64,000 nucleotides of DNA, taken from assembly GCF_000814825.1 (NCBI RefSeq), contig NZ_CP009302.1, positions 930,001-994,000 on the forward strand, read 5' to 3'. Under the pieces are notes generated by a model. That model saw only the letters and a program-made list of their open reading frames with translations, ran no database searches and was not told the origin of the DNA. Shown one piece after another: positions 916 through 42,117 of this stretch. The position numbers and the translations under genes are program-made. Source of the DNA: Berryella intestinalis (GTDB lineage: Bacteria > Actinomycetota > Coriobacteriia > Coriobacteriales > Eggerthellaceae). Within the stretch, counting starts at the first letter, position 1, and every line of letters begins with the position of its first letter.

Positions 916-3900
916 TTAAGACTCCGTTAGAATGTGGCGCCTTAAATCTTCGACGGAAATTCGCTTTCCCTCCAAAACAAGATCGTACAAAAGGCTTGCC
1001 ATTCTAGCCAAAGACTGCGAGTCAGACAGGGTACTGTCAGCAAATGCATCGTAGTCTTCGTTCTTGTAGGTCATTGCATATTTCTGGGCACTTTGCCTGA
1101 TTCTGCCGCCAGCCAATACGGTTTCTTTACTATTAGAGGGGTTTTTGATCTGTGCCAAGGTCATATCGCTTGTCTCAACAAAATCAGCAGCCCCGTTGAG
1201 GAAAATCGCAGCAGCCAAGGGGTCTCCACCTGGGAACATTTCGTTGATTGCGGCAAGAATATCAGACAGCCATTCTTCCTTTGGCGTACGGCTTTCTCCG
1301 CCCTTGCTCATCGGACGAAGAGGAGTTGCTTCCTCAGGCGTCTCAGGTTTAGTCAGCCTGACGAGCTTTAGTTCTGTCATAACCAATCCGCTAACGTCAA
1401 AATCATCGCTTGAACCGCCACGCAGACGATGACCAAGAAGCTTCGCGAAACCATCGAAGGCTTCCAATTCAGGGTCTTCGAAAGCAATTGCCTGAGATAT
1501 AAAGCTATATGCAGAATGGTAATGATGTAGCTTCTTACGGAAGCCGAGCAAATGTTTAATTGCTTCATTGGACTCATTCAGCTTGGCTGCTGCCATCTTT
1601 TCGGTCTCAATATCACCGTTTGCGCGAGAGGTCTCAACCAAGTCATGCCATTGACGCTTCTCGGTAACTGCCGCATCCATGGCTTCTTTCCAACGGTTAG
1701 TTGGAATAGCCACGGCATTATAGAGGGCAGTGCGACTAGCTTCACGCTCATCCTTGGACACGGCTATGAACTCTTTGACGCGAGCTGCCTTGTAATCTTC
1801 AAAGTCGCCAAGGGTATAAATGCCCCATTCGTCCAAGGCCTCTTTATCGTCATAGACGATATCAGGGTCTTGAGCCTTGCACATCTCGGCGCCGTTGTCG
1901 TACTTCTTGAATGCAGCAACAACAGTATCAGGGTCATTGACGAAATCGACAATGAACACTTCTTCTTTGTTGTGATACGTGCGATTCAGCCGGGAGTAGG
2001 TCTGAACGATCTCGATGTCGTTCGCAATGTACTTGTCGATATACATTGCGCAGAGTTTGGGTTGATTAAAGCCGACTTGGAACTTGTCGCAAACAATCAG
2101 GAAACGGTTCCCTTGGTCTTCGAACGCGTCCTCAATGGTCTTGTGACCAAGCTCATTCATGTTGACTTCGGTGTAGTCGTAGTCCCGGCGAATCATCGCG
2201 AAAGGATTATCTTCGAGGTATTTGTCCTCATCGACGATTGCCTGAGTCCCATTGACCTTACCGCTGAACGCAACCAAAGGTTCGCCAGGCACATAAAACT
2301 TCAGTGCGTCGGCAACTTTATCTCGATCATACTCAGGGTGAGCCTTGATGTAAGCGTCGATCGCGTACTTATAGCGCACAACATTAGGCCGTGAAGAAGT
2401 CACGACCATAGCTTTGGCGTGGCCGTCAAGGAGGTGGGCGACGTTTTTCATAAAGTGTTCAATGATGAACTCTACTTTTTCCATTACGTTTGTCGGTTGC
2501 AAAGACTGCCATTTTGCAATCTCGCTAAACGCCTTCTTGGGGTCAACGAGAGCATCCTTTTTGTGCTCTGATGCAATCTTGTAAGCCGTCTTGTAAGGCA
2601 TGTAACCCTTCAAAACGTCAAGGATGTAACCTTCCTCAATTGCCTGTCGCATCGGATACAGGTGGAAGGAGGTCATAATCTCGCGGTCGCTGTCGTCAAA
2701 CCTTCCCGAAGGTGTACCGAACAGAGTCTTGGTCTCTGCCTTAGGTGTTGCCGTGAACGCCATGAAGGAGACGTTGGTTGGCATAAGGTGGGACTCCTGA
2801 ATGAGCCTGGTACGTGCTTCTGCAAACTCTTCGTCGCTCGCATAGTCTTCACGGTTCAGATCGACCGCTTTACCAGAAGAGGCAAACATCAACGCAGCTG
2901 ACACGCCCTGGGAGTCGGAGCCGCCCTGACCCTGGTGGGCCTCGTCGATGATGACTGCGAAGTTTGCATCCTTGAGCGCGTCAAGAGTAGCGATGCCCTG
3001 AAGGGCATACTTGAAGGTCTGGACGGTGACGACGATAATCTCGCGCTTCTCCTCGAGGGCTTTTACCAACTTGCCGTTTTTGGAGCCCGAAGTATCGTCA
3101 ATCAACTCGATAACACCACGGGTGCGCGTGAGCTGGGGAATGGTCTTCTTAATGTTGGTATCAAGGGCAACACGATTGGTCACAACGATGACGCTGGTGA
3201 AGACTTTGTTTTTGTTGCCGTTTCTCGTCGCGCAAGCGGATGAGCTCATGAGCCGTCCAGGAGATGGTCTCTGTCTTGCCGGAGCCCGCCGAATGCTCGA
3301 TAAGATAATGCTGACCAGGGCCATTCTCCTTAACATCAGCAATAATCTTCAGAACGCTATCCCACTGGTGGTAGCGAGGAAATAGCTGAACCTTGAAAAG
3401 CTTGGTTGAACCGTCCGGCTGACGCTTATTATCCACTTCCTCAAAGATGAAATTCGTGAAGATGCGTACCCAGTTCTCGGGCATACAGATGTCATTCCAG
3501 AAATAGCCGGTCGGATACTCAGCGTCGCCCTTCTGCATTGGAGGGTTGCCCGCATGACCGTCGTTGCCTCTGTTGAACGGAAGGAACTTCGGCTTCTTCG
3601 GGGAGAGGTCTGTGCACATCCAGACCTCATCCTCGGACATGGCAAAATGAACCACAGCGCCACGCTTGTATGCGAGAAGAGGATTCTTGCGTTTGGTGTC
3701 AGGTTCAATGGGTTTGCGCCTTGTTTGGTACTCAATGATGGCGTCATGAACAGTTTGGGTCATCTCGGTTTTGATTTCACAGGTTGCGACTGCGATACCA
3801 TTAATGAAGAACGCCAAATCGATGGAGTTCTTGCCCTGAGTCTGATAATGAACCTGACGCATAACGCGAAGGACATTGTTCTCGTAGTTGTGCTTTGCGA

Positions 3901-4267
3901 CCGCGTCGCGAGGGTCGTCAGGATAAGCCCCAGCGCAAGTGATGTTCTGGAAGCCTGCCATCGGGAAACCGTAGCGAAGCACCTGAATGGTGCCCTTCTC
4001 CGGCTTCTCCAGGTACTTGATCAAGTTGCGCTTGAGGTTCTCGCGCCAGTTGTTAGGAGACTGCTTCTGCATTCTCTCTAACTTTTCAGGGTCGATACGA
4101 CGCTGGTACTCGATGAAGTCGTCGAACACCAGCGCAGTCCCCGCGTCAAAACCTTTGTCATTATCGGACTTAACCCACTTAACACCATCAAGCTGTGTCA
4201 AGTTGGTGAGTTTTCGAGCAACATACTTCTCGAACTCAGTCTCCAAATGGATGTCTCCAGCAGGCAT
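916..4267 (-). pseudogene. hsdR: Type I restriction endonuclease subunit HsdR, frameshifted
   Basis: HsdR is the motor and nuclease subunit of type I restriction enzymes. The N-terminal part (4267 down to about 3225) carries the nuclease-like region with DLAFFINGIAVATCEIK and the Walker A motif HSAGSGKTETISW. The remainder continues in another frame with VIVVTNRVALD, the DEAH box IIDEAHQGQGG, FTATPK and the helicase motif TYSRLNRT. The shift falls between Walker A and DEAH. Removing one base from the TTT at 3221-3223 (plus strand) restores RDENGNKNKVF and gives one protein of about 1116 residues, normal for the family. The start (ATG at 4267) lies five bases after the stop of the hsdS remnant, the usual M-S-R order. 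As written the enzyme is dead; a sequencing error or slippage at this short homopolymer remains possible. Confidence 0.85.
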
Positions 4268-4272
4268 ATTTG

Positions 4273-4551
4273 CTATGCCTCCTTCCTGCAGTCGATCTTG
4301 CCAGTCACAGCCTGGTAGATGATAGACTTGCGGTAATCTGCGAGCCTTTCGGCCACGGCACGTTGCTTCTCGATAGCTTGGTCAATCTGAGCGCATTTGA
4401 CATCAAGATGACCAGCAATTGCTTTCTGCTCTTCAATCGGCGGAACAGGAAATACGAAGTTCTTGAACACCGGAGCTTGAAGACGCCAACGGCCCAAACC
4501 ACTAACACCGGCGCCTAAGCCATAGAAGATTTCTTCTGGGGCGGTTGACAA
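4273..4551 (-). pseudogene. hsdS: 3' fragment of hsdS (specificity subunit)
   Basis: The fragment encodes the end of the second target-recognition domain and the distal conserved helix: EEIFYGLGAGVSGLGRWR, then PVPPIEEQKAIAGHLD and a long helix with AQIDQAIEKQRAVAERLADY. This matches the central repeat of the 5' part (PPYDEQQSIADYLDEKCSQ at 7395-8534). Sequence before about position 4537 is no longer hsdS-like, so the first residues of this frame are inserted DNA. The two pieces join naturally at YSKKI / IFYGLGAG, showing one hsdS split by about 2.9 kb. No start signal of its own is visible, so it is probably not translated. Confidence 0.85.
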
Positions 4552-4599
4552 GGGCTGTCCTTCAGCCCTGCAATTAAGAGGATGATGAGCTGGCTGAGC

Positions 4600-5505
4600 T
4601 CATGAAGGGCCTTGGGAGCGAGGGGTGCCCACCAGCAATTCAGCCTCGATGGTGATGCTTTTCACACGCGATAGATTTAGGGACTCCGCGTCGATGCCGA
4701 ACAGCAGCGGCGTCATCTCGGCGAACACGCGGACGTCCCTTTCGGACATCTCGAAGGTGCGCGTCACCTTGATGCGGTCGGTCATCTTGAAGTGCTTCTC
4801 AAAGCAATCGGTCACCAGCTGGTTTGAGTATTCCTTGCTGCGCAAAGATCCTTCAGCAAGGTGGCGCAGCTCCGTAAGATGATTGCTGCCTGGAACCACT
4901 TTGACCAGCACTCCTGGCGCGGAGGCGTTTCTGGTTGGGGTGAGAACGCGCTTGAATTCGTCGTAGTTCGAGGGAGCGAATACGTCCACCACGCAGTTGA
5001 TGGAGCCTTTCAGCACGGGGATGTTCGTCAGGTCGCCAACCAGCCATTTGACCGCCTTTCTGGAATCGTGGCGGGCCGCCATCAGCATGGCGTCTTTTGA
5101 GAGGTCAAACGCCACCACGTCGACACAGAGGTTTTCTCGGATTGCACGTGCATAGAAGCCTTCTCCGCATCCCGCGTCGAGCACGCGGAATGGCGTCGCG
5201 TTCACAGCTGCAGGACCCTCGCTTGGGGAAAGGGCCCTTCCTACCGCGGTGAGGACGGCTTCTTTCACGTGGTCGTAATACCCTGCCTCCAGGATTGCCA
5301 TGCGGCTCTCAAAGGATTCTTTGCTGTAGTGGGCTGACTGCCTGGAGGGCCCTAGAAGGTTTACGTACCCCTGCTTTGCGATATCGAAGCAGTGCCTCTT
5401 CGGACATACGAGGCTCCCTTCCTGCAGCTTCAGGGCGCTGTGGCAAAGGGGGCAAGAGAGCACGTCGGCGCTGTCAGCAAATCGCGCGTATCTGTCGAGT
5501 ACCAT
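4600..5505 (-). CDS. rlmA: RlmA-type 23S rRNA (guanine-N1)-methyltransferase
   Basis: RlmA-family enzymes methylate G745 or G748 in hairpin 35 of 23S rRNA; the G748 branch (TlrB) gives tylosin/mycinamicin resistance in producers. The N-terminus has the family zinc site CPLCHSALKL and CPKRHCFDIAKQGYVNLL (about residues 18-50). The SAM-binding motif VLDAGCGEGFYARA follows at about residue 110, then VVAFDLSKDAM. The length of 301 aa is normal. The ATG at 5505 is preceded by a purine-rich AGGAG on the minus strand. The gene lies between the two halves of hsdS, so it arrived with the insertion and is not part of the restriction operon. Whether it acts on G745, G748 or another base cannot be read from the sequence. 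Confidence 0.8.
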   Translation of the reverse strand: MVLDRYARFADSADVLSCPLCHSALKLQEGSLVCPKRHCFDIAKQGYVNLLGPSRQSAHYSKESFESRMAILEAGYYDHVKEAVLTAVGRALSPSEGPAAVNATPFRVLDAGCGEGFYARAIRENLCVDVVAFDLSKDAMLMAARHDSRKAVKWLVGDLTNIPVLKGSINCVVDVFAPSNYDEFKRVLTPTRNASAPGVLVKVVPGSNHLTELRHLAEGSLRSKEYSNQLVTDCFEKHFKMTDRIKVTRTFEMSERDVRVFAEMTPLLFGIDAESLNLSRVKSITIEAELLVGTPRSQGPS

Positions 5506-5726
5506 TGCGTCTCCTTTCGTCCAAGCAATTCTAGCGGATGAGTCTTCCCCAGCAGTGCATGGCTAATCACAGCAGGCAGAACCGCACAGTGACAAATAGC
5601 TGAGCTATTTCAAGCTGGGATTTCGGTATTCTGCTGCCCTCTTTTGGGCCACTTCATTTCGCCACGCTTTTGACAGGAGCAACAGGGTCCTCGCGCGCAA
5701 AACGCATATGGGCAATGCAGCCGTCT

Positions 5727-5840
5727 GTCAGGGCATGCCTGCGACCCCGAACCAGCCGAAAGGGCGGTGGATCTGCCCGTCAGGGCATGCCTGTGCCCCC
5801 GAACCAGCCGAAAGGGGGGTGGATCTGCCCGCCAGGGCAT
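5727..5840. repeat. 52-bp tandem repeat, two copies plus a partial third
   Basis: Units start at 5727, 5779 and 5831 (partial). Each begins G(T/C)CAGGGCAT and contains CCGAACCAGCCGAAAGG and GGTGGATCTGCCC. The two full copies differ at only a few bases. They lie in the 400-bp non-coding gap between the rRNA methyltransferase and the ISL3 element. There are no spacers, so this is not CRISPR. No gene is visible in 5506-5905. Confidence 0.7.
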
Positions 5841-5905
5841 TGGCAGAAGAAAGAATGCCGAGATACTCAATAAGAAGATTGATAACCTTCAGCAGGTGAA
5901 AAAAG

Positions 5906-7471
5906 GAGGCTTCGGTAGTTTGTGTGACAAGGGGCTAGCCTAGGCAGCAACGCTCTTCGCTCCCTTCACGCCCTTCTTCCTCGCCTTCACCGGGCGACCC
6001 GGGAGCTGGGGCTGGCAGTCGCCGCACCTGAGCATGAGCAGGGCCACGAGGTTGTCGGTGTTGCGGAAGCCGTAGCCCATCCTCACCGCCACCTTGATCT
6101 TGTTGTTGATGGCCTCTACGCGCCCGTTGCTGATGCCGAGCTCGACTGCGGCGATGATGTCGTCGCGCCGGCGGCGCACCTTCTTCTCCACGGCGACGAC
6201 CTTGGCGATCTTGCAGTAGGCGGCCCTGTGCATCCAGTCGTCGAGCAGCTCGGCGGCCTCGGAGCCGTCGGCTGCCCGGAAGACGGCCCGCAGGTCCTCC
6301 TTGAGCTCCCAGGCCCTGACCAGCCGCGAGCCGGCCCTCTTCTTGAGCGCCTCGAGCCTCGCCCTCTGGCCGTCGGTGAGGTCCTCGGGGTTCTTCACGA
6401 GCGCGTAGCGGCTGCCCTTGATGGAGGCCGCCTCCTCCTCGAGCGCCCTGACCTCCTCGGGCGGCAGCTCGCCTTTGGCAGGCCTGCCGCGCTTGCCCTC
6501 GGGCCTGGGCCTGGCGGCCCTGGCGGCGGCCCTGGCGGCGTTCCACTCCTCGCAGCGCACGGCGTCGAGCGCGTCGTTCATCCACTGGACCACGTGGAAG
6601 GGGTCCATGACCCACCTCGCGTTGGGGCAGCGGCGCTTGACCAGCTGCCTTATCCACCTCGCGCCGTCGGCGGTCACCACCTCTATGGCGCGCCTCTGCT
6701 CGCGCGTGAGCTCGTCGAGGAACAGGTTGAGCACGTCCTTGCCGGTGCCCTCGTGCGCCCAGATGAGGCAGCCGCGGTCGTGGTCGACGACCACCGTGAC
6801 GTACTTGTGGCCCTTCTTGTACGACGTCTCGTCGATGCCGATGCGGCGCACGCCGTCGAACCTCGAGGCGCCGCGCGCGGCCTCCAGCTCGGCGTAGACG
6901 CGCCTGCACACGCCGCCCACGCTGTGCCACTCGACGCGGGCGAGCTCGGAGACCGCCGAGGCGGTGCAGCGGACCGCCAGCCACGCCACCCAGTCCTCGA
7001 AGTCGCGCGTGAAGCGCGCCCCGTGCCGCGCCCAGGGGACGGCCTCGGTGCGCACGCCGTGCTCCGGGCAGCGCACCCTGCAGGGCGCGTACTCCAGGTA
7101 GCAGGCCGAGCGCGCCAGGTCCATCGCCCTCCACAGCCTGGGGGCCCCGCGGTTCGCCATGTCGTAGAAGTCGCAGGCCCTGCCGCATACGGGGCAGCGG
7201 CGCTGCTCGCGCTTGTAGGGCCGGACGCTCACGACGATGCGCTCGGCCTCGATGCGCGCGCCCAGGACGACCGTGCGGGCCAGACCGAGGGCGAGAAGTA
7301 GTAGACTCTTCATGCGTCACACCTCTTCGGTTGTCTGAATTTGGCTTAGTAATCATAGGCGGATGACGCGGAAACGGCCCCTCCCGGGGCCGTTTCAGTT
7401 CCAGATCGTTGTTTTCGCCCGCTGAGCTGGGCCTATGCCGGAATCTCTCCCACAGAAACCACCGAAGAGCC
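5906..7471 (-). mobile_element. ISL3-family insertion sequence
   Basis: A single ISL3 transposase is bracketed by imperfect inverted ends. The right end, read inward from 7471, is GGCTCTTCGGTGGTTTCTGT and the left end from about 5906 is GAGGCTTCGGTAGTTTGTGT; TTCGGT, GTTT and TGTG are shared. The right end cuts hsdS after YSKKI. The 8 bp beyond each end (GAAAAAAG and AGATTTTC) do not form a direct repeat, so either the left end is not the original insertion boundary or DNA was lost or rearranged. Confidence 0.7.
5940..7313 (-). CDS. ISL3-family transposase
   Basis: This DDE transposase of 457 aa is full length for ISL3. It has an N-terminal zinc-binding region (CPVCGRACDFYD and a later CRVRCPEHG). 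The catalytic residues fall in IGIDETSYKKGHKY (D), VMDPFHVVQWMNDA (D) and SNGRVEAINNKIKV (E). The C-terminal GYGFRNTDNL block is typical. The GC-rich coding style contrasts with the AT-richer hsd genes it interrupts, indicating a different recent source. The frame is intact, so it may still be active. Confidence 0.92.
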   Translation of the reverse strand: MKSLLLLALGLARTVVLGARIEAERIVVSVRPYKREQRRCPVCGRACDFYDMANRGAPRLWRAMDLARSACYLEYAPCRVRCPEHGVRTEAVPWARHGARFTRDFEDWVAWLAVRCTASAVSELARVEWHSVGGVCRRVYAELEAARGASRFDGVRRIGIDETSYKKGHKYVTVVVDHDRGCLIWAHEGTGKDVLNLFLDELTREQRRAIEVVTADGARWIRQLVKRRCPNARWVMDPFHVVQWMNDALDAVRCEEWNAARAAARAARPRPEGKRGRPAKGELPPEEVRALEEEAASIKGSRYALVKNPEDLTDGQRARLEALKKRAGSRLVRAWELKEDLRAVFRAADGSEAAELLDDWMHRAAYCKIAKVVAVEKKVRRRRDDIIAAVELGISNGRVEAINNKIKVAVRMGYGFRNTDNLVALLMLRCGDCQPQLPGRPVKARKKGVKGAKSVAA

Positions 7472-8534
7472 AGATTTTCTTTGAATAACAAGTCTGGAGC
7501 AGATACAGCATATATCGGTCGAAGGATAGGTTGGGATTTTGGATTTTGAAGACACGATAGTCAGGGCTTGTTACGCCAGGATATTTTGAGATATCGACCC
7601 AACCAGTTAGCAAGTCCATGTGGTTCATCGCAAAATCACCAGGCTCAACTAGCTGATAATTCGCATAGCTTTCTGCAACTTGCCCCTGATTACTTTCCAA
7701 ATCTTTTGGCACGATACCGCGCTGAGTGATGGAAAGCACTGTGTGGCCTTCTTCGCCAGCAATATCTTTTTTTATATCAAACAAGTACTTCAAACGACGG
7801 GTTTCCCAGTTTTTGGGAATATCGCCAATCCATTCAATGCCACTGGCTTTCATCTCCACATCGGGGTTGAGACCCTTGGTAGCACAATGAAAGATTAGGG
7901 TTTTCTTGTAATCGGCAAGGCGGTCTGCAATGCTGTTGCAGCGTTCGATAGCTTGGTCGATCTGGGAGCACTTTTCATCGAGGTAGTCTGCGATACTTTG
8001 TTGCTCGTCGTAAGGCGGAATAATTGCCGTCGTGTTCTTCAAACGCGTTTGATTGACTGAATAGACTTTGACATCTATGAGCATTTTTCTAAACTGGTCA
8101 CGCCATCCGTCGGTCAAAAACATATATGCAAAAAACCTACTATCACAATCAATGATTGGACGCGCGGTAATCGCATGATATCCCGCAAATATCGGATACT
8201 CTTTGTCTATCAGGACGGCATTTCCGCATCCACCCAAATCCTCGGATGTATCTGCAAAAATGAAATCGCCCTTCGAGCATAAACAACTGGGGTTTGTCTT
8301 CAAATAAACCTCTGGAACAAACCTAATCAATTCATCAACAACGCGTGTACCAGGATTTTTCTTCGAGTGAATTTGACCATAACTAATGACGGGAACGCCC
8401 TCATCGGTTAAGTCTTCTTTCTTTATGGAAAGACCTTTACCAAAAGAGAACATAAACCGAAGTCTTTTGGTTGACCAATTTGAAGGAATTTCCTCAATCC
8501 AGCCAACACCAGAATCTTTCATGGGCCTAATCAT
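7395..8534 (-). pseudogene. hsdS: 5' part of hsdS, truncated by the ISL3 end
   Basis: HsdS supplies DNA target recognition to the type I complex. Two half-repeats are visible: EEIPSNWSTKRLRFMF (about residue 15) and GDIPKNWETRRLKYLF (about residue 220), separated by the conserved helical spacer PPYDEQQSIADYLDEKCSQ. Genuine hsdS coding ends at 7472; the last 25 or so residues are read from the IS terminus, so the second recognition domain lacks its end and the distal helix. The ATG at 8534 overlaps the hsdM stop by 8 bases. A truncated subunit with one intact recognition domain can sometimes dimerise, so residual methyltransferase specificity is conceivable. Confidence 0.85.
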
Positions 8535-10605
8535 TGAAGACCTCCTTCATAAAGGTCTCAAGGTCGGTCTCCATTTCAAGAAGCTCATCAGCAATTTTTT
8601 GGGGGTCTTCGGGCTGAACGTATTTGTAGAAATACTTGTTGAAGGAAATCTCAGTACCCACGATGCCGACACCACCAGCAATACGGTTGTCAGGACCTAC
8701 CCAAGTATCTTCAATGCTCTGGTCAATCCAGGCGTCCTCGGCATAAGGCAAGACCTCGTTTGTCATGTAGTCACCAAAGTCCATGCCCCACGGGATTTGC
8801 TCAAAGTCTTTCAACTCAGGGTCAGGAACGATCTCGCCCTTCTTGTCCAGAAGAACATCCCATTCAGAGTTAGTCTCACCAAACGTGGAACGGATGGCTT
8901 TTGCAAGCGGTGCTGCAGTTAGCTTAATCTTAGTCGGATAACTCTTGATGAACGCCTTGGCAAACTCATCGGCCCAAGCCCAGGTTTGGTAGCCAGCTTC
9001 CTTTCCCAGAGCATCCTTCAAAGCCATTGCAATGTCCGCATCAAGCTTAGACATCGGCTTTGAAGAGGTAAGAAGATCTTCAAACTTGCTCGTATTCACA
9101 TTAATCTTTGCACGCAGAGGACGCTGGGTCGTGACCTTGCGGAACATGAAGTCAGTCACAGGAACGATCACAGATTCCTCGGTCTGTCGACCGTCGTAAT
9201 AAAGTTGTGCAATATGGTCAATTTGAGCCTGCGACAACTCAAAACGCTTCTTCGCCTTAGGCTTGCGAAGCTGGGTCCGCTGTTCAGATGCATCGATAAG
9301 CTGAACCATACCCTTGCGGTTAGCAGGCTTATCGTTGGTCAAAATCCAGAGGTAAGTTGCAATGCCAGTACGGAAGAAGATATCCGTAGGCAGCTTTACA
9401 ACGCAATCCAGATAGTCTTGTTCCAAAATCCAACGGCGAATGTTGGAAGGGCCAGAACCAGCATCACCATTGAACAAAGGAGACGCGGAAAGAACAATAC
9501 CAGCGCGAGACGGTTTTATAGAACCGTCCTTTTCACGCCTGTGGAATTTAGAAATCAGATGCTGCAGGAACAGCATGGAACCGTCAGAGATGGACGGTGT
9601 GCCGGCACCGAAGCGTCCATTGAAGCCCTTTGCCGCTTCAGCGTTAACGCTATCTTGTTCCTTCTCCCACTTCTTGCCGTAAGGAGGATTGCTCAGAATA
9701 TAGTCAAAGGTTTTGCCCGGGAAGGCATCGCCTGTATCAGCATCGGAAAGAAGCGTGTCGCCGTAAGCGATAAAGCGAGACAGGTCTTCGGTCGAAGAGG
9801 TGCCCGTATGGCGAAGCAAAAGCGAAGCTTTGCCCATTGCCCAGTTCTCTGCTTCAATTTCCTCACCGTAAGGAAGGATCGATGCTGGAGCAACCATCTT
9901 CTTTTCGGAGTGCCATTCGTCGAGAAGGTCAAGGCCGTCCGTAATGAAGCCGCAATGACCGCAGGTGGGATCATACAGAGTACGGACGATACCAGAGTCG
10001 GAGTTCATCAGCTCGTCATCGTTTGCGAAGACCATGGTGACTGCAAGGCGAACAACATCTTTAGGGGTCATGAAGTCTTCCGCGTCTTCGGCAATCTCAT
10101 CACCGAATTTCTCAATAAGGTGTTCGTAGATTTCTGACATCTCACGGTCAGAAACATTTTCAGGAGACAGGTCGAACCTGCCAAAACGTTTGCAAACTTC
10201 ATAGAGCATGTCGTGTTCTTCCAGCGAACCCCACACCTCGCCGGTCTTGAAACGCTGCATGATGGAACGAGCATTGGGCGAGAATGCGTCGATGTAGTTG
10301 TTCAGCGCCTGGAGAGTACCCGTAGAAGGCAAAGTTGAAAGTCGATAGTTGGAGACGTTATAGAAAGGCTTATTAGATATGAAGCAGTAGTTGTCGTGCT
10401 CGCGACCCCATTTACTTTCATTCTTCTTGAAACAATCACAAACGGCTTCGCGAGTGGGCTCAAGGACGCATTCCAGCCTGCGCAGAAGAGCGAACGGAAG
10501 AACAACCTTGTTGTAGTCCTTTCGCTTTACGATGTCGCGAACATAGTCGGCAATGTTCCATATTTCATTCGCATAATTAAAGCTTTTCTTATCTCCAGCC
10601 ATCAT
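8527..10605 (-). CDS. hsdM: Type I restriction-modification DNA methyltransferase HsdM
   Basis: HsdM is the adenine-N6 methyltransferase subunit that partners HsdS. The N-terminal helical domain (KRKDYNKVVLPFALLRRLE) is typical. The SAM motif region reads DPTCGHCGFITDGL, where most HsdM have DPTCGTGGFL, so two motif I residues are unusual. The catalytic NPPY is intact in ILSNPPYGKKWEKE. The length of 692 aa is slightly long but normal. Two adjacent ATGs (10605 and 10602) follow GGGAGGAA; the second is better spaced. The gene is about 80 bp downstream of the WYL regulator and leads the hsdM-hsdS-hsdR order. With hsdS and hsdR broken it may be an orphan. Confidence 0.92.
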   Translation of the reverse strand: MMAGDKKSFNYANEIWNIADYVRDIVKRKDYNKVVLPFALLRRLECVLEPTREAVCDCFKKNESKWGREHDNYCFISNKPFYNVSNYRLSTLPSTGTLQALNNYIDAFSPNARSIMQRFKTGEVWGSLEEHDMLYEVCKRFGRFDLSPENVSDREMSEIYEHLIEKFGDEIAEDAEDFMTPKDVVRLAVTMVFANDDELMNSDSGIVRTLYDPTCGHCGFITDGLDLLDEWHSEKKMVAPASILPYGEEIEAENWAMGKASLLLRHTGTSSTEDLSRFIAYGDTLLSDADTGDAFPGKTFDYILSNPPYGKKWEKEQDSVNAEAAKGFNGRFGAGTPSISDGSMLFLQHLISKFHRREKDGSIKPSRAGIVLSASPLFNGDAGSGPSNIRRWILEQDYLDCVVKLPTDIFFRTGIATYLWILTNDKPANRKGMVQLIDASEQRTQLRKPKAKKRFELSQAQIDHIAQLYYDGRQTEESVIVPVTDFMFRKVTTQRPLRAKINVNTSKFEDLLTSSKPMSKLDADIAMALKDALGKEAGYQTWAWADEFAKAFIKSYPTKIKLTAAPLAKAIRSTFGETNSEWDVLLDKKGEIVPDPELKDFEQIPWGMDFGDYMTNEVLPYAEDAWIDQSIEDTWVGPDNRIAGGVGIVGTEISFNKYFYKYVQPEDPQKIADELLEMETDLETFMKEVFND

Positions 10606-10685: not shown

Positions 10686-11669
10686 TTATTCATCCTTGAG
10701 CAAATCTCTCAAGTATTCTTTGTATTCCTCAACCAGGCTCTTTGGCCCGGCAATAGTTACCGTCTTTCCCATGCCGGCGATCCAGCCGAAGAACTGCTCG
10801 CTCTTCCTGATCCGGACATGGGCCTTGGCGGACGCGTCGTCGATCCTGGAGATCTCCGCCGAGTCTCCGAAGCGGTCCATGACGATCTCGACCTTGTCGG
10901 CCCTCACGCTGAGCGTCGCCGTGACCTCCTCACCGCCGAACCTGCCGAAGTACTCGTACTTCCCCTCATCGTAGACATGATGGGCTATCTCGTCGTTTCG
11001 GGAGGCCTCACTATCGGACACCCTCACCTTGCCCATTCGGTCGAGGCGGTACTCGACCATGTTGCCGTGGTCGTCGTCCCAGGCGGTCAGGTAGTAGAAC
11101 CCGTCCGCATAGGCGATTTCCACGGGCGTCACGACGTGCGGCCTCCCGTCTCGGGTCGCGTAGCGCTCCCCGTCGACGTTTCGGCGGTAATAGGCGAACT
11201 CCACCTTCCTGCGGAGCCTTAGGGCCTCGTGGATGGCGTCCACGTTCGCGAACACGCTCTGGCTCTTCGTCTTGATCCTGCCGGGGACGTGGATCCTGCG
11301 CTCCAGGAGCGCCCTCTGGTGGTCGCTGGCGAGCAGCTTGATGTTGGTCACCAGCGCGTTGCACTGCCGCTTCGTCAGCGCCTTGCTCGATTGCACCGCG
11401 TCAACCATGAGCATGAGCTCGTCGAGCTCGAAGTCTCGCCGGACTATGGCGTACTCCACTGGGTTCCTCTGGTAGGTCTGGATGTCGCATCCGAACTCCA
11501 GAAGCACCTCGATGTCGCGGTAGACGCTCTTGCGCTCAGCCTTGATGCCGAACTGCTCCAGCCTCTCGATGATCTGCCTCATCGACAGGCCGTGCTCCGC
11601 GTCGGTTTCCTCCTCGAGGATCTGCTTGACGTAGAGGGTCTTCAGCTTGGCCTTGTTGTTGTACGTCAC
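10686..11669 (-). CDS. WYL-domain transcriptional regulator
   Basis: The protein is about 327 aa with an N-terminal winged-helix region (QIIERLEQFGIKAERKSVYR) and a central-to-C-terminal WYL domain (VTPVEIAYADGFYYLTAWD and YRLDRMGKVRV). WYL proteins sense ligands, often nucleic acids or nucleotides, and commonly control phage-defence or mobile genes. An upstream in-frame ATG at 11885 exists, but the GTG at 11669 has GGTGAGG at proper spacing and begins at the domain, so I chose it. A 13-bp palindrome overlaps the -10 box (TATATT, 11709-11714), which suggests autorepression. The same palindrome precedes parA. The gene is co-directional with the hsd operon and may regulate it. Confidence 0.85.
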   Translation of the reverse strand: MTYNNKAKLKTLYVKQILEEETDAEHGLSMRQIIERLEQFGIKAERKSVYRDIEVLLEFGCDIQTYQRNPVEYAIVRRDFELDELMLMVDAVQSSKALTKRQCNALVTNIKLLASDHQRALLERRIHVPGRIKTKSQSVFANVDAIHEALRLRRKVEFAYYRRNVDGERYATRDGRPHVVTPVEIAYADGFYYLTAWDDDHGNMVEYRLDRMGKVRVSDSEASRNDEIAHHVYDEGKYEYFGRFGGEEVTATLSVRADKVEIVMDRFGDSAEISRIDDASAKAHVRIRKSEQFFGWIAGMGKTVTIAGPKSLVEEYKEYLRDLLKDE

Positions 11670-11697: not shown

Positions 11698-11710
11698 TTT
11701 GTCCGACAAA
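11698..11710. promoter_or_regulatory. Operator palindrome at the WYL gene promoter
   Basis: Read on the minus strand the site is TTTGTCGGACAAA, directly after and overlapping the -10 box TATATT (11709-11714) and about 28 bases before the WYL gene start. The identical 13-mer occurs in the parA promoter in the same orientation relative to transcription (12636-12648). Binding by the WYL protein or by ParB is inferred. Confidence 0.65.
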
Positions 11711-11714
11711 TATA

Positions 11715-12117
11715 TCCTCGTATTCTATCGCAGAACGCGGTTACCGAATAGATGGGTGTCCCATAGTGTCGCCTCTTGGCACCCAGCGGCCACGGCCTCC
11801 CGGGTGGCGATTCCGCCCGCGCATCTTCCACGCGCCCTCCGCATGCCATCCCGCCCTGGCTTTCCTTGACCACGCACGCTCGCACGGAACCGCAGGGGCT
11901 ACAAGGGCCGCGATATTTTTCCGATTTCTTTCGGCGGTGGGAGGGAGGTTTGGATCCCGCCGAAACAAACCGCTGCGCTCCGGAAAACTAGCGGCATGGG
12001 GATGATTGTTCCAAGACATGTCTTCGCTTCCTCCCTTTCCGCCCCCTCGGACCCGCGCGCTCTCCGTGTCACAAGGCAAGCCACAGGGGCGAGCCGATAA
12101 GACTAGGAGGTCACGTT
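11715..12117. other. Intergenic gap between the WYL gene and the YraN-like gene
   Basis: About 400 bases separate the divergent WYL and YraN-like genes. The left edge holds the WYL promoter. AGGAGGTC at 12105-12112 is the ribosome binding site of the downstream gene. Longer frames here are antisense or low-quality, and no repeat or RNA gene was recognised. Confidence 0.5.
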
Positions 12118-12486
12118 ATGAGCAATCTGCACGAGAAGGCAATCGCCGCTTCCGAGAGGTTCCTGGAGCGCAGGGGCTACGAAGTCCTCTCCACCAGTTG
12201 GGAGGCACCCGACGGCTTCGGCACCATCGACGTCGTCGCGATGGACGAGGACACCATCGTCTTCGTCACCGTCGAGGCCAAAAACGCCACCGACGGCTTC
12301 CCCGAGGAGGACAACGACCGCGTCAAGCGCGAGGCCCTCGCAGCCAAGTGGCTCGCGGAGAACGCCGAGCGCGGTGACATCTCGGTCCGATTCGACGCAA
12401 TCTCGATGATGGTCGTGAGCGAGGACCGAGCCCTCCTGCGCCATCACATCAACCAGCTTTCCACGATGGAGTCCGACGAGGAGTAG
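12118..12486 (+). CDS. YraN/UPF0102-family endonuclease-like protein
   Basis: A protein of 122 aa with the compact PD-(D/E)XK-like fold signature of the YraN (UPF0102) family: an N-terminal helix (EKAIAASERFLERRGYEVL), then FGTIDVVAMDEDTIVFVTVE followed by AK at the position of the catalytic E-x-K. The genome copy of yraN normally sits near rnhB; here it begins the mobile-element module, 250 bases before parA, so it is an accessory copy possibly acting during DNA transfer or entry. The start ATG follows a strong AGGAGGTC. A strong terminator follows the stop. Confidence 0.75.
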   Translation: MSNLHEKAIAASERFLERRGYEVLSTSWEAPDGFGTIDVVAMDEDTIVFVTVEAKNATDGFPEEDNDRVKREALAAKWLAENAERGDISVRFDAISMMVVSEDRALLRHHINQLSTMESDEE

Positions 12487-12511
12487 CGACCTCCACTCCT
12501 CCGAGGAGGAG

Positions 12512-12545
12512 GCCGGGCGCCCGCAGGGGCGCCCGGCTTTCGTTT
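12512..12545 (+). terminator. Intrinsic terminator after the YraN-like gene
   Basis: GCCGGGCGCC (12512-12521) pairs with GGCGCCCGGC (12528-12537) around a 6-base loop and is followed by TTTCGTTT. It separates the nuclease-like gene from the parA promoter. Confidence 0.8.
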
Positions 12546-12600
12546 GCTCGCACGACGAGCCCATGCCCATGGATCTCCGCGGTGCACCTTTCCTTCTTAC

Positions 12601-12658
12601 ATCGTACGTTATCGTACGTTTTGTGATATGATGTGTTTGTCGGACAAAAACGTACGAT
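12601..12658 (+). promoter_or_regulatory. parA promoter with repeated operators
   Basis: Two direct copies of ATCGTACGTT (12601-12610 and 12611-12620) are mirrored by AACGTACGAT at 12649-12658. Between them lie a -10 box TATGAT (12627-12632) and the 13-bp palindrome TTTGTCGGACAAA (12636-12648). The layout fits a tightly autoregulated partition operon. The CGTACG repeats may be ParA/ParB sites or a centromere-like parS set; the 13-mer is shared with the WYL promoter. Confidence 0.65.
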
Positions 12659-12735: not shown

Positions 12736-13503
12736 ATGCGCACGATAGCCATATCCAACTACAAGGGAGGCGTCGGCAAGACCACCACGGCGGTGAACCT
12801 GGCCAGCATCTACGCCTCCCAGGGCAAGAGGGTCCTGCTGATCGACCTCGACCCCCAGGCCTCCGCCACGGACTTCTTCGGCCTCTACGAGAGGGCAGCC
12901 GCCGAGGACCGCACCTCCATCGAGCTCCTCTACGGAGGACGACCCGTCTCCAAGCTCGCCTACGAGACCGACACCGACGGGCTCTCCGTGATCCCCTCCA
13001 CCATCGAGCTGGTGGACCAAAACGAGCTGCTCCTGCGCGAGCAGAGGCTCAAGTTCGCCCTGGACGACGCCTCCGAAGACTACGACGTCTGCCTCATCGA
13101 TTGCTCCCCGGTCATGAAGCGCCTCGCCTTCAACGCCTACCTCGCCGCCGCCGACGGCGGCCTGGTGGTGATTCCCGTGAAGCTGGACTCCACCGTCATG
13201 CGTGGCACCGCCCTCACGGTGGAGGCGACCAAGTCGATCGCCGAGGCGCTTAGGATGCCGACACCGAAGTACCGAATCCTGCGCACCTGCGTCCCCGGAC
13301 GCATGACCAACGCCGAGTCCACCGGCGCGCAAGTGCTGGACAACTTCTTCCCGCAGTCCCAGTTCGAGACCGTCATCCACGCCAGCTCGAAGGTCTGCGA
13401 GGGCAGCTGGCAGTGGAAGCCCGTGACGGCCTTCGAGCCCGGCAGCAGGCCGGCGCTCGACTACGCGGCGCTCGCCGAGGAGATATCACATGAGCTCGCC
13501 TAG
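12736..13503 (+). CDS. parA: ParA-family partition ATPase
   Basis: ParA ATPases move plasmid or element DNA with ParB. The deviant Walker A KGGVGKTTTAVNLA sits at the N-terminus (about residues 10-20) and Walker B-like VLLIDLDPQASATDFFG follows. The protein is 255 aa, a short plasmid-type ParA without an N-terminal HTH. A longer frame from 12544 exists, but the ATG at 12736 follows GAAAGGGA and starts directly at the ATPase fold. It overlaps parB by 14 bases, indicating translational coupling. Its presence suggests the element is maintained extrachromosomally at least transiently. Confidence 0.92.
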   Translation: MRTIAISNYKGGVGKTTTAVNLASIYASQGKRVLLIDLDPQASATDFFGLYERAAAEDRTSIELLYGGRPVSKLAYETDTDGLSVIPSTIELVDQNELLLREQRLKFALDDASEDYDVCLIDCSPVMKRLAFNAYLAAADGGLVVIPVKLDSTVMRGTALTVEATKSIAEALRMPTPKYRILRTCVPGRMTNAESTGAQVLDNFFPQSQFETVIHASSKVCEGSWQWKPVTAFEPGSRPALDYAALAEEISHELA

Positions 13504-14392
13504 GGACGTGGCCGCAGGCTTCTCCATCACAGGGCTTCTTGACCAGTCATCCAAGACCAGGGAGCGCTACCCCGTCGTCGAGATCGACGTGCGAACCATC
13601 GCAGACCACCCCGCTAACGTAACCTACTCCATGGAACGCGAGAGCATCCGCAAGCTCGCCCTCTCCATCGCCGAGAACGGCCTAACGGACATCCCGCTGG
13701 TGAGAAAGATGGGCGACGGGTCATGGCAGATGATCTCGGGCCACAGGCGCAAGGCGGCATACGAGCTACTCTCCAGGGAGGACCCCTCGTACGAGAAGAT
13801 GCCCTGCCGCATCATCGAGGGAATCAGCGACGAGCAGTCCGTGACGTTGCTGCACACGGCGAACTACTTCGTCAGGGCGCTGACCGTTTCCGAGAGGGCC
13901 GCCGCAACGAGCGCCCTCGGCATGGAGGTCAGGGCACTGCGGCAAAAGGACAAGTCCCTCACGGGAATGCGCACCGAGGACGTCAAGGCCAGGATTATCG
14001 AGCAGCAGACGGGCCGCAGGGTTTCCGGCAAGACCATCCAGCGCGAGGAGCGCATGGCCCGAAGGATTGCCGAGGACCTCTCCCCGGAATGGGCCTCGGA
14101 GGCAGACAGCGGCAACCTCACCGCCGCCGCAGTGGAGGCGCTGAGCAGCCTTCCGAAGCCCGACCAGTCGGACCTCTACGAGCGCAAGGGCCGCGGCCTC
14201 GTCAGCAAGAAGCAGCTGTCCGACTACGTGGTCGAGTACGCCGGCGCGAAGCATGTTGCCGACCCGAGGCTCGCGAAGGCCAAGCGCCAGATCGCCGCGT
14301 GGCTCGACGAGCCGCACCGCAACGTCACCGACCACGACCTGCGGGCCCTCCGCGAGATTGCGGAGATGACGGCCCGCTTCATGAAGAGATGA
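13490..14392 (+). CDS. parB: ParB/Spo0J-family partition protein
   Basis: The N-terminal ParB nuclease/CTPase-like domain shows DVRTIADHPANV, IAENGLTDIPLVRK and the conserved GHRRKAAYELL. This is followed by a helix-turn-helix region (about residues 120-190) that would bind the centromere. At 300 aa it is a typical plasmid ParB length. The start overlaps the end of parA. The candidate oriT and palindromes follow within 10 to 220 bases. The CGTACG repeats upstream of parA are plausible binding sites. Confidence 0.9.
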   Translation: MSSPRDVAAGFSITGLLDQSSKTRERYPVVEIDVRTIADHPANVTYSMERESIRKLALSIAENGLTDIPLVRKMGDGSWQMISGHRRKAAYELLSREDPSYEKMPCRIIEGISDEQSVTLLHTANYFVRALTVSERAAATSALGMEVRALRQKDKSLTGMRTEDVKARIIEQQTGRRVSGKTIQREERMARRIAEDLSPEWASEADSGNLTAAAVEALSSLPKPDQSDLYERKGRGLVSKKQLSDYVVEYAGAKHVADPRLAKAKRQIAAWLDEPHRNVTDHDLRALREIAEMTARFMKR

Positions 14393-14400: not shown

Positions 14401-14609
14401 GCCGCCTGGTCCCGTAAGGGGCTCAGGCGGCAAATCCAGCAAGTAGCCCATGGGCGTCAGACAGAAATCTGACAGCCCAAGGCATTTGTTCCGGGCACGT
14501 TCGAGCAGCTTTGTCGCGAGCTGTGTGAGGGCTCGCTCCGGAGTACGCCCGGAATAGCAGGCGGCCGCGGTGAAAAGAAAAGCGGCTCGCCTGGCGGGGG
14601 ATCCCCCGC
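14401..14609. other. Candidate origin of transfer (oriT) between parB and mobC
   Basis: This 274-bp gap contains three ordered inverted repeats. GCCGCCTG/CAGGCGGC occupies 14401-14408 and 14424-14431. GTCAGA-CAGAAA-TCTGAC occupies 14456-14473 inside GGGC/GCCC arms. A perfect 16-bp palindrome GCGGGGGATCCCCCGC lies at 14594-14609. oriT sites of MobC/relaxase systems lie just upstream of mobC and contain such hairpins. The nick site itself is not identified. The first hairpin could instead be the parAB terminator. Confidence 0.5.
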
Positions 14610-14666: not shown

Positions 14667-15089
14667 ATGGCAAAGAAGACCAACAAGGAACAGCGGCTCA
14701 CCTTCCGCATGGCTCAGGAAGACTACGAGAAGCTGGAGAAGCGCTGCGAGGATGCGGGGCTGACCAAGTCCGAGTATCTCCGATACCTCGTGCGAATCCC
14801 CCTGGCCACCGAGGAGAACCCCGAGGCGGAGCATGCGATTCTCGTGGACCGAAAGGCGATGAACGCTATGTCGAGGGAGCTGACCAAATGGGGGTACCAC
14901 TACAACCAGGCGGTCCATGCGATGAACTCCATCAACTACTACGTCGCGCGCGGCACCATCGACCGAGAGTTCATCGGCACCAAGGCGGAGGAGATCGAGG
15001 TGGAGCTCGTCACCGTGAACCGCAACGCTGAGCGCCTCGCCTACGAGCTCGGCCAGATGCAGAGCCTTGTTTTGGTGGCTGACAAGTAA
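14667..15089 (+). CDS. mobC: MobC-like relaxosome accessory protein
   Basis: A protein of 140 aa with an N-terminal ribbon-helix-helix-like segment (RLTFRMAQEDYEKLEKRC, then GLTKSEYLRYLVR) and a C-terminal helical region (NQAVHAMNSINYY) typical of bacterial MobC. MobC opens the oriT DNA for the relaxase. The start ATG at 14667 is preceded by AGGAGCAAACC. The stop overlaps the relaxase start in TAATG, a translationally coupled pair. Confidence 0.88.
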   Translation: MAKKTNKEQRLTFRMAQEDYEKLEKRCEDAGLTKSEYLRYLVRIPLATEENPEAEHAILVDRKAMNAMSRELTKWGYHYNQAVHAMNSINYYVARGTIDREFIGTKAEEIEVELVTVNRNAERLAYELGQMQSLVLVADK

Positions 15090-16342
15090 TGCCAATTCTG
15101 AAACCGATATCGGGGCATGGCTCAACCGTCGGAATCAGGCGGTATCTGGAGAAGAAGAACCGCGCGTTAGCAAGGGACTTCTTCAATCTCTCGTGGGACG
15201 AGCGTAAAGACATCGACACTCCCGAGGACAAGAAGGAGTTTGTGCTCTGGGATGTCGAGATGGATGCGACAAGGGCCGAGTTTGGACATGACGAACCTTG
15301 GCATGGAATGAGGGCCAGAACTTTCAAGCACTTCGTCCTCTCCCCGGACCCAGATGACGCCATCGGCCTTGCAGAGCTGCGGGAGCTTTCAAGCGCCTGG
15401 GCCCTCAGGTTCTTCCCCGACAACCAGATCGCCATCGTCTACCACGACGACAACGCTCGCGGCATCCCCCATGCCCACATCGTCGTCAATAGCACCAACC
15501 TCCTAACTGGCAACAGAATGCACACCGAGCACCCCGAGGACCTTAACCGGGCGCTGCAGGACATGGCGCGGGAGCGAGGACTTTCGGGCCTGTCGAACCA
15601 GAGGAAGCCATCTGAGGGCAAGGCTGACGCGGCTGAGAAGAACAAGGTTAACGCGCCCAGGACACGGAGAAACGTCTACCTGGGACGGCAGGAGAGGGAA
15701 ATCGCCAAGGCGGGCGGATACACCTGGGTCGGCGATATCAGGGCGCGCGTGGCCCTTGCGAAGACCATGGCCGCCAGCGAGGCGGAGTTCTTCGCGATCC
15801 TGGACGCCTTGGACGTTCATGTGGCCGACAACTCCTCGAAGGCGCGCCGGGACGACTGGATCTTCTCGCTTGCGGACTGGCCTTCGAAGAAGGTCTCCGG
15901 AGAGCGGCTTGGCTACACCTACGGCAAGCAGATGCTGCAGCGGCGCTTCGATAGGAGCGGGGCATACAGACCCACCGAGAAATCAATCGACGAGATCAGG
16001 AAGCGCGCCGAGAACGCTGTCGAGCTGAACGACCTGGAGGACCTTTCAAAACTCTCCGCTGCGCTGGAGACTTGCGCGAAGTTCGATGTCGAGTCCCTGG
16101 AGGAGTTCGATGCTCGCCTCGCTACCCTCTCCCGACGCGGCCAGATCGGCAGCGAGGGCGCCCAGAGGCTCATGCAGGCGAAGGAGTATATGACCGAGCA
16201 CGGGCTTATGCCTCAGCAGGTCAGGTACGAGCAGAGGCAGGAGGAGCTTGTCGACAGGCGCAGGTCCAGGACGAACCAGAACGAGCAAAGAAGCCTGGCT
16301 GCAAGGCAACGTGAGCAACAGCGAAGGAGGAACGAGCGATGA
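15089..16342 (+). CDS. MobA/VirD2-type relaxase
   Basis: The relaxase nicks oriT and is carried into the recipient attached to the strand. The three-histidine metal motif is clear: AIVYHDDNARGIPHAHIVVN at about residues 114-133. The likely catalytic tyrosine lies near the N-terminus in GIRRYLEKKN. The C-terminal half is charged and coiled-coil-like (QQVRYEQRQEELVDRR). At 417 aa it is a compact MOBP-like relaxase. It shares TAATG with mobC and overlaps the next gene by four bases (ATGA), forming mobC-relaxase-orf. It stands opposite in strand to the transfer genes at 24-40 kb. Confidence 0.88.
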   Translation: MPILKPISGHGSTVGIRRYLEKKNRALARDFFNLSWDERKDIDTPEDKKEFVLWDVEMDATRAEFGHDEPWHGMRARTFKHFVLSPDPDDAIGLAELRELSSAWALRFFPDNQIAIVYHDDNARGIPHAHIVVNSTNLLTGNRMHTEHPEDLNRALQDMARERGLSGLSNQRKPSEGKADAAEKNKVNAPRTRRNVYLGRQEREIAKAGGYTWVGDIRARVALAKTMAASEAEFFAILDALDVHVADNSSKARRDDWIFSLADWPSKKVSGERLGYTYGKQMLQRRFDRSGAYRPTEKSIDEIRKRAENAVELNDLEDLSKLSAALETCAKFDVESLEEFDARLATLSRRGQIGSEGAQRLMQAKEYMTEHGLMPQQVRYEQRQEELVDRRRSRTNQNEQRSLAARQREQQRRRNER

Positions 16343-17067: not shown

Positions 17068-17562
17068 ATGGTCACCAAGGATGATGCGTGTTGGATAATC
17101 GGCCTTTCCGCAGGTGCGGGCATTGGCGTATATCTTGATGGCGGCTGGGGCGTCGATGCGCTTGTCGGGCGTGAGACCAGGGCTCATAACGACATCGACC
17201 TGTTCGTTCAGCGCGGGGATTACCAAAGGTTCGTGGATCTAATTGCTGATGAGGGGTTTTCCGAGGTGGCTGCATCTTTCACCACCGAAGATCACACGGT
17301 GTGGCAAGACGAGGCGGGGCGCATCGTCGACCTGCATTGCTTCGATTTCGCCGAGAATGGCGATATTCTGTATCAGGGAGATCGTTTTCCCGGGGAGGTC
17401 TTTTCGGGGAGGGGGCGCATCGGCGAGGTGGAGGTGTCGTGCATCGACCCCGAAAGCCAGCTGTTGTTTCACTTGGGCTATCAGCATGACGAGCACGACG
17501 TCCACGATGTCATGCTCCTATGCCGTGAGTACGGTTTCGACGTTCCCGAAGAATATCGCTAG
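17068..17562 (+). CDS. Lincosamide nucleotidyltransferase-like protein (passenger), copy 1
   Basis: Lnu-type enzymes adenylylate lincosamides. This 164-aa protein has the family order: YLDGGWGVDALVGRETRAHN followed by DIDLFV (metal-binding D-x-D), a middle DLHCFDF, and the C-terminal CIDPESQLLFHLGYQ with HDVHDV. The length matches LnuA/LnuC (about 161-164 aa). The ATG follows AAGGAGCTCCT. Its location inside an insertion sequence and its duplication in the window favour a selectable function. Identity to characterised Lnu enzymes looks modest, so the substrate is inferred. Confidence 0.72.
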   Translation: MVTKDDACWIIGLSAGAGIGVYLDGGWGVDALVGRETRAHNDIDLFVQRGDYQRFVDLIADEGFSEVAASFTTEDHTVWQDEAGRIVDLHCFDFAENGDILYQGDRFPGEVFSGRGRIGEVEVSCIDPESQLLFHLGYQHDEHDVHDVMLLCREYGFDVPEEYR

Positions 17563-17633
17563 CTGTTGCTTTTTGCATCGGGTCACGACTTCAGCGCTTG
17601 CCGCAGATGCGCTGCGCCAGACCGCCCTGGACA

Positions 17634-18728
17634 TCACGCCACGCCGTATATGGCCCTCCGCGCACGCGAGTCCCATTTCGCCTGCTTGATCCAGTACTCG
17701 TAGAACGGATAGGGGGTCACCTTGTACTGGCGCCAGGTCTTCTCGTACGTGCCGCGGGCCGCCTGCCTCACTATGAGCTCGGCGAGCTCGTCCGCGCTCC
17801 TGCGGACCTTGAAGCACCACGTCCACTTGAACCAGGCGAGGTAGTTCTCGAGGCGTCTCGTGGAGACGCCCCGGAACCTGCCGATGAAGTGCCTCATCTG
17901 GGAGTGGAGGCTGTTCACCCTGTTGATGGCGTGCTCCTCCCTCTTGCTGGCGATGTGCTCGCCGACGCCGAGGGCGGGCAGGACGCGGCGGTACACGTGC
18001 GCACGGTCCGTCGAGATTATCGCGCCGACCGCGAGCTTGTCGGCGAGCAGCTCCCTGGCTGCCGCCTCGTCGAGGCCGCCCCTCCCCGCGATCTCGTAGA
18101 AGATGTCGCCGGCGTCGTTGATGCCGGTGAGCACGCATATCTTCTCGTGCCCGTCGGTTCCCTGCGACCTTGCGCGGGGCTTCCTGGGCACGCCGGACTC
18201 CGACCTGGAGCGGTTTCCCTTGAAGCTCTCCCTGAAGAAGCACTCGTCGAGCTCGGCCCCGCCGCCGGCCTCCACGCGGAAGGCGGGCATGCGCTTGGCC
18301 ATGGCCTCGAGCAGCCTGTGGCGCATGAAGAACGCCGTCTTGAGGCACACGCCGCACTTTTCCGCCGACTCGCGCAGCGGGAGCATGTCCACGTGGCACT
18401 CCGCGAACCTCATCCAGGCCGACCTGTCGAGCTTGGTGGTGGAGAAGATGCGCATGGTGGCGTCGGTGAAGGTCCTGGCGCACCCTCGGCAGAGGAACCG
18501 CTGACGGCCGCGCCCGTCTCGCCCCCTCTTCACGTAATGCGGGGAGCCGCACCAGGGGCAGGCTCTGTCGGGATCGTCTTCCGCCCCCTCGCTTGCCGCG
18601 AGGTCGAACAACTCCGCGTCTATCAGCGCCTTGAGCGATCTCAGGGCCCTGCTCTTCTCGGCAGCCGTCATCTGCGGGAGGAACTGCCTCGTCAGCTGGG
18701 TGAGCACGTCTTCCATTGCAACCTCCAT
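17634..18728 (-). CDS. IS1595-family (ISXO2-like) transposase, copy 1
   Basis: The N-terminal zinc ribbon CPWCGSPHYVKRG and FLCRGCARTFTDAT (about residues 58-92) and the ISXO2-like DDE-type core are clear: AELDECFFRESFKGN, ISTDRAHVYRRVLP, INRVNSLHSQMRHFIGRF and STRRLENYLAWFKW. At 364 aa it is full length. Two starts four codons apart are possible (MEVAMEDV). It is convergent with the passenger gene and identical to the copy at 40952-42046. Confidence 0.93.
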   Translation of the reverse strand: MEVAMEDVLTQLTRQFLPQMTAAEKSRALRSLKALIDAELFDLAASEGAEDDPDRACPWCGSPHYVKRGRDGRGRQRFLCRGCARTFTDATMRIFSTTKLDRSAWMRFAECHVDMLPLRESAEKCGVCLKTAFFMRHRLLEAMAKRMPAFRVEAGGGAELDECFFRESFKGNRSRSESGVPRKPRARSQGTDGHEKICVLTGINDAGDIFYEIAGRGGLDEAAARELLADKLAVGAIISTDRAHVYRRVLPALGVGEHIASKREEHAINRVNSLHSQMRHFIGRFRGVSTRRLENYLAWFKWTWCFKVRRSADELAELIVRQAARGTYEKTWRQYKVTPYPFYEYWIKQAKWDSRARRAIYGVA

Positions 18729-19004
18729 CTTTCCTGATGATGGAATTGTCGCAATTGGGGGTCCTGCTGCGTGTACTGTGCATAGGACACTTATCCAAAG
18801 CGGTCTAACACAACGGTTAGCGCGGACATAGATTGGCCAACGCTCGTTCTAGAATCCCAGTAATGGGCATTGGCCAGCGAATGCAGCGCCCGGTGTTGAG
18901 ACTCTCGAGTATCAAACAGCTCAAGTCACCGTCAGGCAAAATGCTTCGCTTTACAAATGCCTTAGAATTATCTGGAAAAAGGCATTGGGCGAGGAGATAT
19001 CAAA

Positions 19005-42046: not shown

Positions 42047-42117
42047 TGTCCAGGGCGGTCTGGCGCAGCGCATCTGCGGCAAGCGCTGAAGTCGTGACCC
42101 GATGCAAAAAGCAACAG

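Follow-up and report, generated by a model that had tools for sequence, protein, structure and literature searches.

A 13-bp palindrome at partition, transfer and defense loci of a coriobacterial mobile element is a candidate MobC binding site

In the 64-kb stretch of Berryella intestinalis DNA analyzed here (the window), a 13-bp palindrome is present at the promoter of a WYL-domain regulator gene and at the promoter of the partition gene parA, and a diverged third copy lies in an oriT-like hairpin downstream of parB. As judged by comparison with related elements, the three sites change in lockstep, are independent of both the WYL protein and this ParAB pair, and are associated with the strand residues of MobC, a NikA-like ribbon-helix-helix (RHH) protein. 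The palindrome is therefore likely to be a MobC binding site at the par-mob promoter, at oriT and at the WYL-defense promoter, where MobC would repress both operons. MobC fits best because of the association of its residues with the site, its membership in the NikA-like family, and the retention of the site in elements that lack a nearby WYL gene or lack this parAB.

Two promoters with the same palindrome

The two exact copies of TTTGTCGGACAAA occupy 11698-11710 (minus strand) and 12636-12648 (plus strand). Both have the same orientation relative to transcription, which confirms the coordinates given in the initial annotation. That annotation reported no other copy in the window. This is true for exact copies, and the search for further exact copies of TTTGTCSGACAAA was also negative in the whole genome (1,967,093 bases, 1.97 Mb); an additional, diverged copy (CGTCAGACA, 14455-14463) had been missed. 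With 2,095 distinct 13-mers recurring within the window, repetition alone is little proof of function, but recurrence is rare among perfect 13-bp palindromes (3 of 35 in the window). The repeated palindrome is probably functional, and we consider the pair to be more than chance because it is kept in another genus and changes in lockstep in other elements (see below).

The plus-strand copy lies 3 nt past the predicted -10 box (TATGAT, 12627-12632, plus strand), which was identified from the sequence and its alignment with relatives. The promoter at approximately 12600-12640 probably drives four plus-strand genes: parA (12736-13503), encoding a partition ATPase of 255 aa; a parB-like gene (13490-14392), encoding a 300-aa protein with Noc/Spo0J relatives in the PDB and a Pfam ParB_N score of 25.3 bits, just below the cut-off of 26.3; mobC (14667-15089; Pfam PF21983), encoding the relaxosome accessory protein that we propose to bind the site; and a MOBP-type relaxase gene (15089-16342; Pfam Relaxase PF03432, E=1e-13; the best NCBIfam match, MobP1, was below its cut-off). 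A single promoter for these genes is suggested by four related loci (L273-L276) that appear to use the same promoter directly for mobC. A consensus promoter scan called neither the parA nor the WYL promoter, and both were recognized by eye and alignment. In nearly all elements, a gene for a UPF0102/YraN-like protein (12118-12486, plus strand, in the window) separates the WYL slot from parA.

A second, different palindrome, ATCGTACGTTATCGTACGT, covers the parA -35 region (12601-12619, plus strand), and most relatives carry a palindrome of unrelated sequence at this position. This -35 family (ATCGTACGT; 12601-12619 and 12650-12658 in the window) is more variable in sequence than the MobC-type site. 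The palindrome found there in relatives can be long and quite different in sequence, for example AAACAGTTCACAAGTGAACTGTTT in L050.

The minus-strand copy lies in the predicted transcribed leader of the WYL-WCX regulator gene (10686-11669, minus strand; GTG start), which matches the Pfam WYL and WCX families and gave no Pfam match for an N-terminal domain. The predicted -10 box of this gene, TAGAAT (11722-11727, minus strand), is kept in WYL relatives. In all six element-borne WYL promoters examined, the 9-bp core of the palindrome follows TAGAAT by 13-15 nt and precedes the start codon by 34-36 nt. Thus, the proposed overlap of the site with the WYL -10 is probably wrong. The "TATAT" beside the WYL-promoter site lacks conservation, being replaced by GCAT in L018.

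The WYL promoters share a box of their own. GGGACA was the commonest 6-mer, present in 20 of 32 WYL promoters as opposed to an expected 2.4 and a maximum of 8 in 1,000 shuffles. The corresponding window sequence, GGGACACCC (11754-11762, minus strand), is the probable operator of the WYL protein and a better candidate for that role than the 13-mer. For a PafBC-like reading, with the motif TTGTCRGTG-N8-TANNNT, the spacing falls one base short.

The WYL gene is the first gene of a defense slot. In the window it is followed on the minus strand by the type I restriction-modification genes hsdM (8527-10605) and hsdS (7395-8534). This cargo appears damaged: hsdS is truncated at its 3' end, apparently by an ISL3 insertion, next to the gene of an ISL3-type transposase (5940-7313), and two overlapping frames (916-3342 and 3161-4267) make up hsdR. 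A gene for an RlmA-like methyltransferase lies between hsdS and hsdR (within 916-8534). The cargo after WYL varies among elements, being type I in the window and L050, an SNF2-type helicase with DUF4391 in L047, type III in L048, and type ISP in L060. Since the gene after WYL differs, WYL with the MobC-type site is, on comparison of these loci, the constant head of an exchangeable cargo slot.

Lockstep change of the sites and the oriT-like hairpin

A genome from another genus (G062) contained the TTTGTCGGACAAA pair 939 bp apart, with WYL and ParA proteins 87% and 99% identical to those of the window; judging from matching contig coordinates and identities, this is evidently the Enteroscipio rubneri element L047. 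The gene order WYL, UPF0102, parA was retained in the more distant L048, L050 and L060 (Adlercreutzia), where both promoters carried TGTAATACA or CGTAATACG in place of TTTGTCGGACAAA. The WYL-promoter copies thus shift in sequence together with the other copies, while their spacing to the start codon stays at 34-36 nt. The palindrome was therefore found to be conserved in homologous promoters, a check that the initial annotation had proposed, both as an unchanged pair in another genus and as lockstep change in distant elements. These paired sites argue strongly that the par and WYL-defense operons are co-controlled by one regulator, as had been suggested.

The third site in the window, the weak version CGTCAGACA (14455-14463, plus strand), forms part of the left arm of an inverted repeat, GCAAGTAGCCCATGGGCG...GCCCAAGGCATTTGT (14439-14489, plus strand), between parB and mobC. 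Across 17 sequences, this hairpin (GCAAGTAGCCYATGGCGT ... ACGCCATAGCACTTGC and variants) showed compensatory changes in 8 of 12 consensus pairs. It is likely to be the oriT, because it precedes mobC, which encodes a NikA-like protein, and the gene for a MOBP-type relaxase.

Most of the readable parA-locus relatives, whose ParA proteins were 57-99% identical, had a palindrome or near-palindrome right after the parA -10 and a matching palindrome in the hairpin that lies 3' of parB (in many cases by approximately 60 nt) and precedes mobC and the relaxase gene. The hairpin site types included GTCNGACA, GTAWTACR, GTATCACG, GTATACRC, GGATACA, GTATATCA, GTGTACAC and GTACGCAC; they were assigned by hand, and the lineages that carry them are not independent. 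In 19 lineages, the mean best 9-mer match between a promoter and its own hairpin was 8.11 of 9, compared with 7.04 when promoters and hairpins of different elements were paired. The own-pair mean was not reached in any of 100,000 permutations; since the lineages are related, this p-value serves only as a guide. With one element per site type, the exact test gave p=0.0004, to be read with the same caution. A match of at least 8 of 9 was found for 15 of the 19 own promoters, as opposed to 4% of random 20-mers from the same loci. Some T3-type promoter copies matched only partly.

Exact copies of TTTGTCSGACAAA also occur in other genomes of the family (L003-L008 and L010-L015), with no WYL, ParA, ParB or UPF0102 match nearby; in the L008 genome, an element of this parA family sits on a different contig. 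Additional copies of CGTATTACG in L273 and L274, the former inside a predicted reading frame, were set aside. A DNA search of plasmids returned generic parA matches only, and viral contigs contained no WYL relative and only distant ParA proteins. Near-identical parA loci were found outside Coriobacteriia, in assemblies of Arcanobacterium haemolyticum, Varibaculum vaginae and Bifidobacterium asteroides (L074, L078 and L079); these may reflect either recent transfer or contamination.

Candidate proteins for binding the site

The protein encoded by mobC matches PF21983 (NikA-like) with 35.6 bits (E=1e-8, cut-off 27), and its gene adjoins both the relaxase gene and the oriT-like inverted repeat. 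Its AlphaFold2 model (mean pLDDT 84) has an extended N-terminus followed by two RHH helices; Foldseek matches of the model include NikA, CopG and Arc, none of them significant by E-value. RHH proteins such as Arc touch DNA via alternating strand residues, and the site within the oriT-like inverted repeat covaries with the strand residues of MobC. This is a correlation; the columns concerned, -4, -2 and -1, correspond to R10, a predicted DNA-contact residue, T12 and F13 of the window protein. Among 135 MobC columns in 31 lineages, the R10 column ranked first for association with site type (adjusted mutual information 0.726), and the T12 and F13 columns ranked third (0.561) and fourth, respectively. 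In the 19 elements that also have ParB, R10 (0.711) was at the top of the 834 columns scored in MobC, ParB and the relaxase. This class-based measure was clearer than a cruder linear pairwise correlation of MobC columns with site similarity, which was weak, with the strand column pair at no better than rank 695 of 9,030.

The association can also be seen in individual lineages. The MobC proteins of L285 and L282 are 36% identical, and both combine the strand residues R-Y-R with the site GTACGCAC. L285 MobC is closer to that of L278 (47%), yet L278 has Q-H-R with GTGTACAC. L071 and L077, 38% identical, both have D-H-R and the GGATACA/GTGGAYACA site type, and T-S-R pairs with a GTAWTAC site in lineages with MobC proteins 33-37% identical.

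Binding of the site by ParB as a parS- or KorB-like operator, through which it would autoregulate parAB, mark a centromere 3' of parB and repress WYL, is suggested by the KorB-like shape of the palindrome. The site flanks parAB on both sides, and the 255-aa ParA has no room for an N-terminal DNA-binding domain, so that ParB would be a natural candidate for autoregulation. The KorB operator OB (TTTAGCSGCTAAA) has the same odd 13-bp layout. A KorB/parS site also adjoins oriT in RA3 (PMC4175270). This reading was set back by L273-L277 and by the column association. The promoter, site, hairpin, mobC and relaxase gene are kept without this parAB in L273-L276, with promoter and site immediately preceding the hairpin, and there the nearest ParA- and ParB-like genes are only 27-30% identical and lie 8-13 kb away; L277, from the window's own genus, has the promoter, the hairpin site and mobC, with no parAB in the stretch read. 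The binder is probably not ParB, since these loci are natural parAB-less versions that keep both promoter and site. Moreover, the ParB columns best associated with site type fall outside the helix-turn-helix and score below MobC R10 (the best, 0.584, is in the C-terminal part), and L071 and L072 have a common site although their ParB recognition helices differ. Altogether, we regard ParB as an unlikely binder.

The initial annotation favored the WYL protein as the binder, with joint control over its own gene and the partition operon; this was rejected on the presence and absence of the site and on the separate GGGACA box. One copy of the site does stand at the WYL promoter, and WYL defense regulators such as BrxR autoregulate via inverted repeats located close to the -10 or 3' of it (PMC9122601). 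However, elements with no WYL gene nearby, for example L051 and its relatives (6 kb read), have the site both at parA and in the hairpin, and most elements that carry the site are of this kind. Conversely, WYL relatives that have not been shown to adjoin parA of this family lack the site in their promoters: among 32 WYL promoters, it was found only in L017, L018, L020, L025, L026, L048 and L060 (which repeats L020), all known to lie beside this parA. Its presence in the oriT-like hairpin also speaks against the WYL protein, which is an improbable binder and is unsupported as the common regulator. Binding by the relaxase or another element protein, with the MobC association due to shared ancestry only, also has a low probability. 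Every mobC is followed by the relaxase gene, so that the two cannot be told apart by presence of the genes, and the lineages are not independent; relaxase columns, however, associate less well with site type (best 0.536, compared with 0.711 for MobC R10). Operators in double-stranded form are typically bound by RHH accessory proteins, not by relaxases.

Proposed control by MobC and comparison with known systems

Returning to MobC as the preferred binder, we infer its binding, repression of both operons, their operon structure and a burst of expression on entry. MobC would bind the palindrome in the oriT inverted repeat, leading to relaxosome assembly. At the start of the parA-parB-mobC-relaxase operon it would autorepress by covering the start site. 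Shortly after the WYL -10, it would form a roadblock past the start and thereby repress the WYL-headed defense operon. In an established cell, MobC would hold both operons low, whereas entry into a cell without MobC would allow both to burst until MobC accumulates. We more tentatively suggest, at somewhat less than even chances, that a relaxosome protein is a master repressor coupling element arrival to partition and to a swappable defense cassette, so that any restriction-modification or other defense cargo placed behind WYL would be subject to it and would be expressed when a naive cell is entered.

If this is true, one small DNA transfer protein times transfer, partition and the carried anti-phage systems in a large family of conjugative elements in gut Coriobacteriia, which would explain how the element gains control of changing defense cargo. 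Rules of RHH recognition could be tested on the ready set of site types and strand residues. Candidate oriT sequences are also gained for elements that carry, in this window, a gene resembling those for tetracycline-resistance ribosomal protection. The EF-G-like protein in question (639 aa; 21269-23188) looks like a tet(W)-type ribosomal protection protein. Elsewhere in the window, an IS1595-type transposase gene is present in two inverted copies (17068-18798 and 40882-42612) together with a gene for a nucleotidyltransferase that matches Aminoglyc_resit and possibly confers lincosamide or aminoglycoside resistance.

In the open literature searched, we found no description of the same site co-evolving in an oriT, a partition promoter and a defense-cargo promoter. 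Parts of this arrangement have known parallels. NikA of R64 belongs to the same Pfam family as MobC. The nikA gene directly follows the R64 oriT, and the oriT inverted repeat, to which NikA binds, contains TGTAATACC, close to the TGTAATACA type. NikA is not known to control any partition or defense gene.

MobC of the IncU plasmid RA3 is likewise encoded directly upstream of the relaxase gene with oriT adjacent. The protein is a repressor of its own operon and recognizes an imperfect palindrome that overlaps the mobC promoter (PMC4175270). The RA3 study concerns control of the mobC-nic operon, whereas here the site is at the promoter upstream of parAB, at a defense operon and in an oriT-like repeat. 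Covariation of a relaxosome accessory protein with its own oriT has a parallel in SmpO of the staphylococcal pWBG749-family plasmids, in which the single change F7K switches oriT-binding specificity and the oriT subtypes have switched more than once in evolution (PMC8136818). The changes described there concern oriT sites, whereas here promoter sites switch along with the oriT-like site.

StbA of R388 acts next to oriT, is an autorepressor, and represses stb and further promoters, including that of ardC; its strong negative feedback has been proposed to cause a burst of transcription once the plasmid has been transferred (PMC3098194, PMC3937220). The entry burst proposed here follows the same overshoot logic. 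StbA, however, binds 9-bp direct repeats (TTGCATCAT) at maintenance and transfer promoters, as opposed to a palindrome that also serves a WYL-headed defense slot. Finally, the WYL gene resembles those of BrxR and CapW, WYL-domain regulators whose genes are linked to anti-phage operons and often head them. Those proteins use their own operators, which are inverted repeats for BrxR, whereas the palindrome described here is most likely that of another protein (PMC9122601, PMC9122588).
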